Shown here in pieces: positions 21,776 to 49,693 of a stretch of DNA of 52,076 nucleotides. The notes under the pieces were generated by a model. The model searched no databases, was not told the origin of the DNA, and worked only from the letters and a program-made list of their open reading frames with translations. Origin of the DNA: Phaeodactylibacter luteus (GTDB taxonomy: Bacteria; Bacteroidota; Bacteroidia; Chitinophagales; Saprospiraceae); contig NZ_VOOR01000037.1 of NCBI RefSeq assembly GCF_007993045.1, positions 1 to 52,076 of the forward strand, read 5' to 3'. Every line of letters starts with the position of its first letter. The first letter of the stretch is position 1. The position numbers and the translations under genes are program-made.

Positions 21776-23437
21776 CTAGGAAGCACAGCTCACGCACTCC
21801 TTGAACTTGTTAGCCATTTCTTGGGCTACACTGGAAGAGCGCTGATAATAGAGGCTTTTGACGCCCAGCTTCCAAGCTTCGATCATCAGGGCATTGACCT
21901 CTTTCACCGGCATCTGCGGCGGGATATTGAGGTTGAGCGACTGCGACTGATCGATGAATTTTTGCCGGGCCGCTGCCTGAATGATGATTTCGCGCGGGTT
22001 GATTTCCCGGAAGGTCTTGAACACCTCCTTCTCGTGCGCTGTCAGCCCATCCAGATGCTGCACAGAGCCATTTTTGAGGAGTATGGACTGCCAGATTTCT
22101 TCCTTGTCCAGCCCCTTTTCCTGCAGCAAGGCCGTCAGGAATTTATTCTTGCGCATGAAGTTGCCTTTAGAGAGGCCTACCTTATAGTAGTTGCTGCTGT
22201 AGGGCTCAATGCCCGGTGAGGTCTGCCCGAGTATGGCCGAGGAAGAAGTGGTGGGCGCTACCGCCATCAGGGTGGTGTTGCGCCGCCCATAGCCTTTGAG
22301 CACCTCCGGCTCCCCGTAGGCCTCTGCAAGTGCTGCGGAAGCTTTTTCCGCCTCCGAGCGGATATAGCGGAAGGCAGAACTGTTGAACTGCTTCGCTTCC
22401 ATGCTCTCGAAAGGGATGTTGTTCTTCTGCAGGTAGGCATGATAGCCCATGACCCCAAGCCCAAGGGCACGGTGCCGCTTCGCAAAATTGTGGGTGCGCT
22501 CCATATAAGGCTGCCCGGCAGACTTTTGGATGAACTCCTCCATCACTGCATCCAAGAACCAAATGGCGTAGTGCACTGCGTCCGTCCCTTTCCACTCCTC
22601 GTACAGCTCCAGGTTCATGGAAGCCAGGCAGCAAACGAAGCTCTCGTCATCGCTCACTGGCAGGGCGATCTCGGAGCAGAGGTTGGAATTGTATACCCGC
22701 ATCCCTTTGTCACGGTATACATCAGCGGCCTGATCATTGACGTTGTCAGCGAAGAGGATGTAGGGCAGCCCTTTTTCCTGACGGCTGTGCAGCACTTTCG
22801 CCCAGGTGGCCCGCTTCGCCTTGTCCCCTGCTACCATCTCCTCCATCCAGGCATTCGTGACCGAGACCCCAAAAAAGATGTTTTGGATGGCATTGCCAAT
22901 GTCCTTTATTTTTAGGAACTCCTCTACATCAGGGTGCTCGATATCCAAGTAAGCAGCAAACGCCCCACGGCGCACATTGCCTTGGCTTACCGTATCGATC
23001 ATTGCATCGAACATCTTCAGGAAAGAGACCGGGCCGGAAGATTTGCCGTTGTTGTTGATGGAAGCCCCCCTTTCTCGCAGGTGTCCAAAATATGCAGAGG
23101 TGCCGCCCCCGTTTTTGGTCATCATAATGCACTCAGAGAGGGTTTTGGTAATGCCGGCCATGCTGTCGGGCACGTAGCTGCCAAAACAGCTGATGGGCAG
23201 GCCACGGCTCGCGCCCATATTGGCCCAAACAGGTGAGGAGAGCGACATCCAGCCATTGGCAACCAGCTCTTCAAACTTGGGCTGAAGGTCTGGCCGCCCC
23301 AGGCGGTTGGCTGCGGCGGTGGTTACGCGGCGCACGGCTTCTTGTGGCCCTTCTCCTTCGAGCAGGTAGCCTCTTTCCAATACGGTGCGGCTTTCGGGGG
23401 TAACCCAGTGGTAAGGTGCTAAGGTGATGGTATCCAT
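21776..23437 (-). CDS. nrdA: Class I ribonucleoside-diphosphate reductase, alpha subunit
   Basis: A 553-residue catalytic subunit that reduces ribonucleotides to deoxyribonucleotides. Visible active-site residues are C84 (PISCFGSY), N252, C254 and E256 (NSNLCSEIALP, with the thiyl radical cysteine), the tyrosine pair in SLYYQRSS, and the C-terminal CVSC pair (C548, C551) that shuttles reducing equivalents. It is about 200 residues shorter than E. coli NrdA and starts almost directly at the catalytic barrel, with no N-terminal ATP-cone. Overall dATP inhibition through a cone is therefore not expected here. It follows nrdB after 85 bases and shares its riboswitch-controlled transcript. Confidence 0.95.
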   Translation of the reverse strand: MDTITLAPYHWVTPESRTVLERGYLLEGEGPQEAVRRVTTAAANRLGRPDLQPKFEELVANGWMSLSSPVWANMGASRGLPISCFGSYVPDSMAGITKTLSECIMMTKNGGGTSAYFGHLRERGASINNNGKSSGPVSFLKMFDAMIDTVSQGNVRRGAFAAYLDIEHPDVEEFLKIKDIGNAIQNIFFGVSVTNAWMEEMVAGDKAKRATWAKVLHSRQEKGLPYILFADNVNDQAADVYRDKGMRVYNSNLCSEIALPVSDDESFVCCLASMNLELYEEWKGTDAVHYAIWFLDAVMEEFIQKSAGQPYMERTHNFAKRHRALGLGVMGYHAYLQKNNIPFESMEAKQFNSSAFRYIRSEAEKASAALAEAYGEPEVLKGYGRRNTTLMAVAPTTSSSAILGQTSPGIEPYSSNYYKVGLSKGNFMRKNKFLTALLQEKGLDKEEIWQSILLKNGSVQHLDGLTAHEKEVFKTFREINPREIIIQAAARQKFIDQSQSLNLNIPPQMPVKEVNALMIEAWKLGVKSLYYQRSSSVAQEMANKFKECVSCAS

Positions 23438-23522: not shown

Positions 23523-24503
23523 TTAGAACAGGTCGTCGGCAGTGAAGGACTGATTGTGCTTGGAGTACTCCACGGGGCGCTTGGCGAAAAAGTCGTCCAG
23601 GGTATTGGCGAAGACCTCCTCCTCAAACCAGTTCATACGGCGCAGCTGCTCCCGGCCTACCTCAAATATGGGCTCCAGCCCAATCTGCTCCAGGCTGCTG
23701 TTGACGCGGTGCTTCATAAAATTGAGCAGGTCTGCTTTGGACAAATGCGCCAGCTCCCCTTCTTCGAAAATCCAGTCCAAGATGCGCTCTTCCTGCGCTA
23801 TGCTCGCCCGCGCGGTCTCGTAGATGACGGCCTCGTACTGCTGCGAGAGCCAGCCGGGGTTCTCCTCCACAATACGGTTGAAAATGTAGATGCCAGCGTT
23901 GGCGTGCAGCTGCTCGTCTTTGCTCGTCCAGGCGATTATATTGCTCGTGCTCTTCATCAGCCCCCTAAAGTGGGTAAAAGAGAGGACGGTAGCAAATTGG
24001 CTGAAGAGGGAGACGTTCTCCACCAGCATAGAGAACAGGATCAGGTTGAGCCCGAAGGCCTGCTCCGGGGAATCGAGCTGAGCGGCAGCCCGGCGGTCTC
24101 GCAAGAACGCGATCCGGTCTTTGAGCACGGAAGTTTGCAAAGCCTCTTCAAAAGCATTGTCCAGCCCTAGCACATTCAGCAATTGAGCGTAAGCTTCTGA
24201 ATGGCGGAACTCGCACTCTGCAAAAGTACTGCCCAGGCCATTGAACTCCGGCTTGGGCAGGTGTTGGTAAAGGTTGCCCCAAAAAGACTTCACGTCTACC
24301 TCCACCTGAGCAATGGCCAAGAGGGTCCGTTTGACCGCTTCGCGCTCGCTATTGGACAACTCCACCTTGAAGTCTTGAATATCGCCGGTGAAATCTACTT
24401 CGGAGTGCACCCAGAAGGTCTGATTGATGGTATTGATGAATTCCAGTACCTCGGGGTATTCGAAAGGCTTGTAAGCAAGCCGGGGCTGGAAAATGCGGCT
24501 CAT
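23523..24503 (-). CDS. nrdB: Class I ribonucleoside-diphosphate reductase, beta subunit
   Basis: A 326-residue radical-generating subunit with a ferritin-like four-helix core. The EFRHSEAY segment (E98, H101, Y105) matches the E-x2-H-x3-Y pattern in which the last residue is the stable tyrosyl radical of class Ia enzymes, so an Fe-O-Fe/tyrosyl cofactor that needs oxygen is likely. There is no N-terminal ATP-cone. The C-terminal tail (KHNQSFTADDLF) should dock onto NrdA. It is the first gene of the nrdB-nrdA transcript; a cobalamin riboswitch ends about 130 bases before its ATG. Confidence 0.95.
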   Translation of the reverse strand: MSRIFQPRLAYKPFEYPEVLEFINTINQTFWVHSEVDFTGDIQDFKVELSNSEREAVKRTLLAIAQVEVDVKSFWGNLYQHLPKPEFNGLGSTFAECEFRHSEAYAQLLNVLGLDNAFEEALQTSVLKDRIAFLRDRRAAAQLDSPEQAFGLNLILFSMLVENVSLFSQFATVLSFTHFRGLMKSTSNIIAWTSKDEQLHANAGIYIFNRIVEENPGWLSQQYEAVIYETARASIAQEERILDWIFEEGELAHLSKADLLNFMKHRVNSSLEQIGLEPIFEVGREQLRRMNWFEEEVFANTLDDFFAKRPVEYSKHNQSFTADDLF

Positions 24504-24631
24504 GATGCATATGTTTTGGGGCAGCCCCGGCAGTCATGAGCGAAGGGTGGCAGGCACAGCCCGTACCCTTGTTGGCCGGTTGTGCGCACCGCTTGCTCTA
24601 GCTCCCGAAAGCTTGCAGGTTAAGAAAAATG

Positions 24632-24813
24632 GCTTGGCCGGTCTTCTGGCTCGCCCCGGCCGTGCCCCCTTCCCGCCCGCAGCAGCGGGCAGTGGCTATT
24701 TGGCACGGCTTTGACAGCTGGCACTTGCCAGCATTGGGGCTTACAGCAGCGGGTACTGCCCGGGGTTCTCACCCGGTTCCCTGGGAAGGCATAAGCTGCC
24801 TCCCCGCCAAACG
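24632..24813 (-). promoter_or_regulatory. Cobalamin (B12) riboswitch in the leader of nrdBA
   Basis: On the minus strand the class signatures occur in order: GGGAACCGGGTGAGAACCCC, then CAGTACCCGCTGCTGTAAGC, two variable hairpins, and the closing element GAGCCAGAAGACCGGCC. The outer helix can form between 24806-24810 and 24635-24639. The leader continues about 130 bases to the nrdB start. A U-rich tract (24624-24630) follows a GGCCGG/CCGGCC stem, which could allow transcription termination; control of translation is also possible. B12 riboswitches that repress class Ia reductases are known where a B12-dependent class II reductase is also present. Confidence 0.92.
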
Positions 24814-24878
24814 TCTTGAAAGATACAAGGGTGTAACCGTTCTTTCAAAAAGACGTTGTAGATAATTACCAACATTAT

Positions 24879-25075
24879 GTGGATAACTACTGATGCCTTT
24901 TGCGGGGTGCGAATATAGCCGGCCTGCCTTCGGAACGGGTAAAATCGGCTTTAGTAAATATCCACACCTTGTGGAGAAAAGGTTGGAACCCTTGCAGAGG
25001 CTGTTTTGGCCTGCCCCAAAACGCCAAGGTGCTGCAGCCCACGCTCTGGAAGCAGGGGGGCTGCAACTTTCCACA
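24879..25075. promoter_or_regulatory. Cluster of DnaA-box-like sites
   Basis: Four sites in about 200 bp: a perfect TTATCCACA on the minus strand (24879-24887), ATATCCACA (24958-24966), TTCTCCACA on the minus strand (24970-24978), and CTTTCCACA (25067-25075), which match the consensus at 9, 8, 8 and 7 of 9 positions. The cluster lies upstream of the nrdBA leader. DnaA is known to regulate nrdAB in E. coli, so it may link dNTP supply with replication; a titration site is another possibility. The 24504-25098 gap holds nothing else beyond the riboswitch. Confidence 0.5.
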
Positions 25076-25098
25076 TTAGGGTGGCGGCACTTGTGCTG

Positions 25099-26193
25099 TT
25101 ACCAGCGCAGGGCCTCCAGGATCTTCCCAAAAATGTCGCTGTTCTGGTAAATGCCTTGGAATTTGGCAGCACTAGGCCCGTAGGCATAGACGGGGATAAG
25201 GGAGGCCGAATGCCCGCCTGTGGAAAAAGTGGGGTTGATGTGCTCGTAAGTCCGCTGCATGCGCACTTCTGCAGCAGAAAGAGAAAGCCCTCCGGTCTCG
25301 TGGTCAGCTGTCACGACAACAAGGGTGTTGCCCTCCTGCTCTGCGAAGTCTAGTGCTGCGCCGATCGCCCGGTCAAAGTCTTTTACTTCTTCGATAATGT
25401 ATTCCCCATCGTTGGCGTGCCCGCCCCAATCTATCTGTGAGCCTTCCACCATGAGGAAAAAGCCGTCTTTGTCTTGAGAGAGGTGCTCCAAGGCGAGCTG
25501 TGTCGCTTCGGCCAGGAAATCGCCCCGCCCTTCCTGCATTTTGGGCATACCGTCGTTGGCGAGCAGGTAGCCGTAGCGCTTTCCAGCCTGTAGGCTGCCC
25601 TTGGCAGGCAGGGCGGTCGTGTCCACAAGGTACCCTGCGGTTTTCAAGGAGTCCAGGTAGTTGAGGTCATCTTTTCGGCGGGCAAAGAATTTGATGCCGC
25701 CCCCCGCGAAGAAGTCGACAGGGGCATGTACGAGCTGTGCCGCGATTTCTTCCTGCATGCTGCGCTGCTCAACATGCGCAAAAAAAGAAGCCGGCGTAGC
25801 ATGTGTGATGGAGGATGTGGCGATCACGCCTGTGGACTGCCCTCGCTCAGCGGCTATTTCCAACAGGGTTTTCCGGGCCTGTTGGCTGCTGTCCACCCCA
25901 ATAGCCCCATTGTAGGTCTTTACCCCTGCAGAGAAGGCTGTCGCTCCGGCAGCAGAGTCGGTAATCTGTGCACCGCTGGGCTTAGGCCGGTGCAGCCCAA
26001 GATGCTGGAAACGCACGAAGTTGGGGGCCTCCTCCTGGTAGTAAAATGCAGTAGACATTTGTGCGAGCCCCATCCCGTCTCCAATCAGGAGGATGACGTT
26101 TTGTGGCTTTTTGCGGATAGCAATCTGCTGGTAGCTGTTGTTGCAGCCCTGTACCATAAGAACAACAGCAAGGAAGAAGAGTAGCTTTTTCAT
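25099..26193 (-). CDS. Alkaline phosphatase, lipoprotein
   Basis: 364 residues from the ATG at 26193, which opens a lipoprotein signal (MKKLLFFLAVVLMVQGC, acylated Cys 17). It is a PhoA-superfamily phosphomonoesterase: metal ligand in LLIGDGMG, nucleophile S80 in TDSAAGATAFSAG, and metal-binding EGSQIDWGGHAND, TADHETGGLS and STGGHSA. It would release phosphate from organic monoesters at the cell envelope. It is transcribed leftward and ends just before the DnaA-box-like cluster. R1 copy 4 lies upstream. Confidence 0.93.
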   Translation of the reverse strand: MKKLLFFLAVVLMVQGCNNSYQQIAIRKKPQNVILLIGDGMGLAQMSTAFYYQEEAPNFVRFQHLGLHRPKPSGAQITDSAAGATAFSAGVKTYNGAIGVDSSQQARKTLLEIAAERGQSTGVIATSSITHATPASFFAHVEQRSMQEEIAAQLVHAPVDFFAGGGIKFFARRKDDLNYLDSLKTAGYLVDTTALPAKGSLQAGKRYGYLLANDGMPKMQEGRGDFLAEATQLALEHLSQDKDGFFLMVEGSQIDWGGHANDGEYIIEEVKDFDRAIGAALDFAEQEGNTLVVVTADHETGGLSLSAAEVRMQRTYEHINPTFSTGGHSASLIPVYAYGPSAAKFQGIYQNSDIFGKILEALRW

Positions 26194-49598: not shown

Positions 49599-49612
49599 CT
49601 TCTAGTCCTGAA

Positions 49613-49693
49613 GAGCCGTGTGAATCGAGAGGTTCAAGCACGGTTCTGTGAGAGGGTGGGGAACTGCTTAGTCAGTTCCCTGCTCTACTCGAC
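49613..49693 (+). mobile_element. Group II intron 3' remnant (domain V-VI), copy B
   Basis: A canonical 34-nt domain V at 49613-49646: it opens GAGCCG with the AGC triad, has a GAGA tetraloop closed by GAATC/GGTTC, an unpaired bulge, and closes CACGGTTC. GTGAGAGGGTGGG and a domain VI-like hairpin (GGGAACTG, CAGTTCCC) follow, then CTCTACTCGAC as the intron end. No other intron domain is nearby. It lies 15 bases from the broken PIN gene and in the same orientation as copy A. Confidence 0.85.

Follow-up and report, generated by a model that had tools for sequence, protein, structure and literature searches.

A cobalamin riboswitch precedes the nrdBA genes of an apparent class Id ribonucleotide reductase in Phaeodactylibacter luteus

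In Streptomyces, adenosylcobalamin acts on the riboswitch of nrdABS and regulates transcription (PMC4991794). The locus reported here resembles nrdABS of Streptomyces coelicolor in having a cobalamin riboswitch before a class I ribonucleotide reductase (RNR) in a bacterium that also has NrdJ, whereas the S. coelicolor target is a class Ia enzyme of an actinobacterium and the present one is of class Id type and belongs to the Bacteroidota (Borovok 2006, cited in PMC4991794). In Propionibacterium acnes, riboswitches likewise precede the B12-independent reductases nrdAB and nrdDG, and none is given for its nrdRJ in the available text of PMC3848588; unlike the situation here, P. acnes expresses B12 synthesis genes and has the class III nrdDG, and both the riboswitch control and, from RNA-seq, an early termination were deduced there. 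Within the same phylum as the present locus, the btu loci of Bacteroides thetaiotaomicron carry B12 riboswitches at which repression by B12 has been measured (about 70-fold), but those treated in the available text of PMC6143338 govern B12 uptake genes and no reductase. For the Bacteroidetes, a complete B12 pathway has been predicted in 0.6%, and B12-dependent enzymes in 96% (PMC6461909). No B12 control of the class Id RNR of Flavobacterium johnsoniae was found in the available portions of the class Id literature searched, and the literature searched, whose reach did not extend to older comparative surveys, held no account of a class Id enzyme or of Bacteroidota nrd genes under B12 control. 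The comparative survey of Rodionov and colleagues from 2003 reportedly proposed that, in organisms with both isozymes, the B12-independent one comes under the control of a B12 element. The regulatory logic is known from actinobacteria; the class Id target and the spread in the Bacteroidota appear to be unreported.

The genome of Phaeodactylibacter luteus comprises 6.01 Mb in 301 contigs (99.85% complete), and the whole stretch of 52,076 nucleotides analysed here is referred to as the window. On its minus strand the order from 5′ to 3′ was an alkaline-phosphatase-like gene, a promoter-like site, the aptamer, a hairpin, nrdB and nrdA. The first of these genes ends at 25099 (−) and reached 178.4 bits to NF007810, which is below the cut-off. 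The aptamer, a full-length Rfam match of the long type, occupies 24619-24826 (−) and lies on the nrdBA strand with a spacing of 115 nt to nrdB (23523-24503, −), which encodes a radical-generating subunit of class Id type (326 aa). It is followed by nrdA (21776-23437, −) for the class I catalytic (alpha) subunit of 553 aa (TIGR02510, 752.6 bits, over the cut-off). A promoter-like site, TTGAAA-17-TATCTT, matched the consensus at the front of the aptamer (24820-24848, −), but as one such site was found against 0.4 expected in the region it is weak alone. A Bacteroidota-type promoter pattern, fixed only after the leaders had been viewed, fitted 6 of the 8 long leaders described below (0.24 expected), lying more than 60 nt upstream in L023 and L028, but fitted neither the window nor L026. 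The only other gathering-level Rfam match in the window was a group II intron RNA at 49611-49693 (+) (RF00029, 57.2 bits).

The presence of a cobalamin riboswitch before nrdBA, placed at 24632-24813 by a preliminary description, was confirmed. When the whole window was compared with Rfam by cmscan, RF00174 (Cobalamin) matched over model positions 1-189 of 189 with 77.9 bits, well over the cut-off of 31.5 (E = 1.4e-17), and the span proposed earlier fell inside this match; a rerun with alignment over 24300-25100 returned the same match. Among the matches listed, all of the seven nearest relatives examined (Phaeodactylibacter, Flavilitoribacter, Lewinella, Saprospiraceae and two bins), whose NrdB proteins were 77-86% identical, had an RF00174 element directly before nrdB, and in each it was the long aptamer (73.6-106.9 bits). 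Phaeodactylibacter xiamenensis belongs to the Saprospirales. In the eight long leaders, the window and these seven, a structure of three helices and 14 pairs, derived from the same eight sequences on which the pairs were counted, was pairing in 112 of 112 cells, with changes on both sides in 5 of the 14 pairs. Sliding the partner columns by 1-3 lowered the pairing to 28-66%. On one of five measures, the number of pair types beyond the first, the eight leaders did not exceed shuffles. Given the E-value, the element in seven of seven nearest relatives and the paired changes across eight leaders, chance was not a serious option.

The controlled enzyme had been described as a class Ia reductase, and on this point the sequence says otherwise. 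The best PDB relative of NrdB was 6cwo (428.9 bits), followed by 6cwq (397) and 6cwp (383.3), and that of NrdA was 6dqw (822 bits); we take 6cwo and 6dqw also to be the class Id RNR of F. johnsoniae. 6CWP and 6CWQ are class Id structures, and the F. johnsoniae enzyme is treated as the type of class Id, a dimanganese, superoxide-activated RNR with a Tyr/Glu pair, for which Lys71, Tyr104 and Thr191 are named (PMC8463856). In the alignment to 6cwo, which assumes a 20-residue tag on the chain and so brings each of the three named residues into register, these correspond to K72, Y105 and T193 of NrdB, while E68 is assigned by position to the place of the Glu metal ligand. The Glu ligand with its second-sphere Tyr and the equivalents of Lys71 and Thr191 are thus present, and E68, K72, Y105 and T193 were invariant in seven aligned NrdB relatives. 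The Tyr, Lys and Thr signature is shared with the F. johnsoniae enzyme, the Glu being matched by position, and its structures are the closest solved relatives. Pfam gave NrdA two reductase domains only, so the alpha subunit has no ATP cone, and the same scan detected an ATP cone in the NrdB of locus L018. At the position taken as that of the ligand, NrdB has Glu and not the Asp that pairs with a radical Tyr in class Ia (pairing rule from PMC8463856). The ligand residue and the nearest solved structures rule out the class Ia label, and together with the Lys/Tyr/Thr signature they assign nrdBA to class Id, apparently as a manganese-dependent enzyme. In the class Id-like NrdB of L018 (3836-5110, −; 424 aa) the ATP cone (PF03477, 72.4 bits) is N-terminal, a feature that has been reported for some Id beta subunits (PMC8463856).

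Two large class I/II subunits were found in the genome, the NrdA of the window and an 854-aa NrdJ on contig C269. NrdJ reached 559.9 bits to TIGR02504 against a cut-off of 399.95 and is an adenosylcobalamin-dependent class II reductase, which bears out the earlier prediction of a B12-dependent reductase elsewhere in this genome. NrdA itself scored 265.8 bits with this model, under the same cut-off, and was rejected as a class II enzyme. The genome gave no NRDD match for a class III reductase, and no match to CbiC, a marker of B12 synthesis; inability to make B12 is likely, CbiC being one marker of the pathway. A second cobalamin riboswitch in the genome (98.2 bits) lies 191 nt before a gene for a TonB-dependent receptor. 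Of the NCBIfam models, the B12 receptor fitted this protein best, but at 47.6 against 599.7 bits it was far below the cut-off. The pairing of riboswitch and receptor, with no match to CbiC, fits a B12 scavenger. Two genomes of the window's family, G017 and G105, had NrdJ but no PF00268 match, and B12 may be needed there for DNA precursors.

B12-riboswitch control of a B12-independent isozyme would call for a B12-dependent isozyme in the same genome, and NrdJ is such an isozyme. It is very probable, judging from the sequences, that the nrdBA leader functions as a cobalamin riboswitch, by which plentiful B12 would turn the class Id RNR down while NrdJ supplies the deoxynucleotides, and scarce B12 would permit nrdBA to be expressed. 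Because a riboswitch before the B12-independent enzyme and the B12-dependent NrdJ occur in the same bacterium, the cell probably uses whichever reductase the B12 supply allows. In the proposed scheme a corrinoid would bind the aptamer, B12 would repress rather than activate nrdBA, and a kissing loop between L5 and L13 would be the binding signal. The aptamer of the window is of the long type, with a full-length RF00174 match and P13, and long-type cobalamin riboswitches usually respond to adenosylcobalamin. These properties make it unlikely that it senses mainly another corrinoid and gives no direct report of the NrdJ cofactor, as might be suspected from those short-type relatives that match RF01689 or RF01482 and not RF00174, and from the varying corrinoid selectivity of cobalamin riboswitches (PMC9600662).

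An L5-L13 kissing loop has been described for cobalamin riboswitches (PMC9600662). In the window, the candidate partners are the bases CCCG at 24750-24753 (−), which the Rfam structure line puts in L5, and the complementary loop CGGG of the P13/L13 hairpin GCUUU-CGGGAGCU-AGAGC (24595-24612, −), which is part of the expression platform. The five-pair stem of P13 was kept in 8 of 8 long leaders, with changes on both sides in two of the five pairs, and L5/L13 read CCCG/CGGG in all eight. The four loop pairs never vary within the long type, and support for the kissing loop therefore comes from the comparison with the short type of aptamer treated below, in which L5/L13 was UGCG/CGCA in 27 of 32 leaders and AGCG/CGCU and CGCG/CGCG once each, both still complementary; the letters were non-pairing in the remaining three (L046, L052 and L083). 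Letters that differ between the types and are mostly complementary all the same are as a kissing loop predicts, and the pairing is put forward on that ground.

The last regulatory step is harder to assign. A candidate is a block of the translation start. In the short type, 16 of 32 leaders reached p 0.05 against shuffles when the P13 arm was paired with a segment lying close upstream of the start codon (mean z −1.92); the sequences used ended 3 nt short of that codon, which makes the true distances three larger. In the long type of the window, the corresponding long-range helix did not exceed shuffles (mean z −0.65, with 0 of 8 leaders passing the 5% level) and was rejected there, and it is a hint only, since 16 of the 32 short leaders pass. 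The possible alternative partner of P13/L13 in the window, shortly before the nrdB start (24523-24546, −), formed a predicted duplex with a non-significant z of −0.4. A search of 24400-25100 found no intrinsic terminator after the aptamer; the sole terminator-like site was located upstream of it, at 24961-24975, and shuffles averaged 1.4 such sites. We lean to a block of the translation start, with chances little better than even, because of this missing terminator and because the P13 arm of the short type can pair about 25-50 nt before the start codon. Somewhat below even are the chances of premature transcription termination through Rho or an unrecognised terminator, with which the biological logic would be the same: transcription of P. 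acnes nrdAB is reported mostly to stop before the first gene (PMC3848588), and structured, often GC-rich stretches were predicted between L13 and the start, while the upstream position of the only terminator-like site speaks against it.

The distribution of the arrangement was followed in 119 genomes of the order, P. luteus included, of which 69 of the 70 with a PF00268 match were used. Left out were G110, with one weak PF00268 match (59.4 bits), and secondary weak matches in G011, G104, G098 and G021. With the split NrdJ genes of G049, G102 and G118 counted as present, a riboswitch preceded nrdB in 7 of the 35 genomes that had both enzymes and in 0 of the 34 that had NrdB without NrdJ (one-sided p = 0.006); without the split genes the numbers in this sample were 7 of 32 and 0 of 37 (p = 0.003). 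In the seven genomes, all of which had NrdJ over the cut-off, the riboswitch lay upstream of the NrdB domain match at a distance of 112-163 nt. Three of the seven riboswitch-bearing nrdB genes belonged to the class Id family and four to another NrdB family that is 23-24% identical to it (L019, L020, L021 and L022, in G057, G101, G070 and G115, respectively, G057 being in the same bacterial family as the window). Because the filters of the genome search were strict and some genomes incomplete, the leaders of the other 62 genomes were rechecked over about 430-730 nt before nrdB with the core motifs of both types, and no missed aptamer emerged; the exception was G044, with an isolated end-motif at −25, and positive controls were recognised in 7 of 7 cases.

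The riboswitch was lacking in 28 of the 35 genomes of the order sample with both enzymes, among them G107 with a class Id nrdB. So many genomes of this kind, and a score of the window's aptamer (77.9 bits) below that of the receptor-side copy (98.2), would suit an aptamer that has decayed or become idle, leaving nrdBA no longer controlled. This is very improbable, as the element is kept in the seven nearest relatives among the matches listed, with paired changes in two helices.

A second sample consisted of the 80 class-Id-like nrdB loci that ranked best among 571 confirmed candidates; two of them, L048 and L064, are apparently identical with G034 and G032 in the sample of the order, so the two tables overlap. 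An element at Rfam gathering level was found before nrdB in 32 of these best 80 loci, 29 of the 32 with NrdJ, and eight further leaders had a ten-base core of the short type no more than 450 nt from nrdB, giving 40 of 80. Within the same best 80 of 571, NrdJ accompanied 36 of the 40 riboswitch loci against 10 of the 40 without (p = 1.8e-9). L086, a locus with no riboswitch, has its NrdJ split on two contigs, and when this is counted the latter figure becomes 11 of 40 (p = 6.9e-9). Since species are not independent votes, the loci were also collapsed, with groups taken from record titles, to one vote per group and state, which left 28:4 against 8:15 in 50 groups (p = 6.7e-5). In this selection of the best 80, the riboswitch occurred without NrdJ at four loci, all from MAGs, and the thresholds used revealed no element at 10 of the 46 NrdJ-bearing loci; L031, which is among these ten, had a sub-threshold match at the right place. 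Genomes with NrdJ and no riboswitch included Niabella, Myroides pelagicus and Kaistella, which shows that riboswitch control is not obligatory. The preliminary description held such control to be known from a few actinobacteria; among the sampled Bacteroidota with both enzymes the arrangement is frequent.

Two architectures of the aptamer were distinguished. The long aptamer was present in the window and in the seven of seven nearest relatives among the matches listed, and a short core in 32 more distant loci of the best 80 of 571, for example in Salegentibacter (Flavobacteriia) and Edaphocola (Chitinophagia). An initial regular expression written for the core of the aptamer recognised the long-type leaders only. 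Short-type leaders had low RF00174 scores or matched RF01689 or RF01482 instead, and L055 was counted as short by its core motif, though long by Rfam (88.6 bits). Eight leaders with the short core were below the Rfam gathering level (L032, L036, L038, L044, L046, L068, L083 and L085), L032 with 31.2 against a cut-off of 31.5. The Rfam clan models seem to cover the short type poorly.

There is about an even chance that the two B12 riboswitch architectures before class Id nrdBA and before another class I nrdB family represent a convergent rule across the Bacteroidota, in which, wherever a metal- and oxygen-dependent reductase and NrdJ coexist, B12 decides between manganese and cobalt for DNA synthesis. 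With a B12 switch on a manganese-type reductase, the supply of DNA precursors would be tied to B12 taken from neighbours, an essential step would involve a choice between cobalt and manganese, and a logic known from actinobacteria would be common in another phylum. The cultured strains to which the finding points are Phaeodactylibacter xiamenensis, Flavilitoribacter nigricans, Edaphocola flava and Salegentibacter species. At L036 and L038 (G132 and G134), nrdJ adjoins nrdBA in opposite orientation, so that a single intergenic region appears to be common to both reductases.
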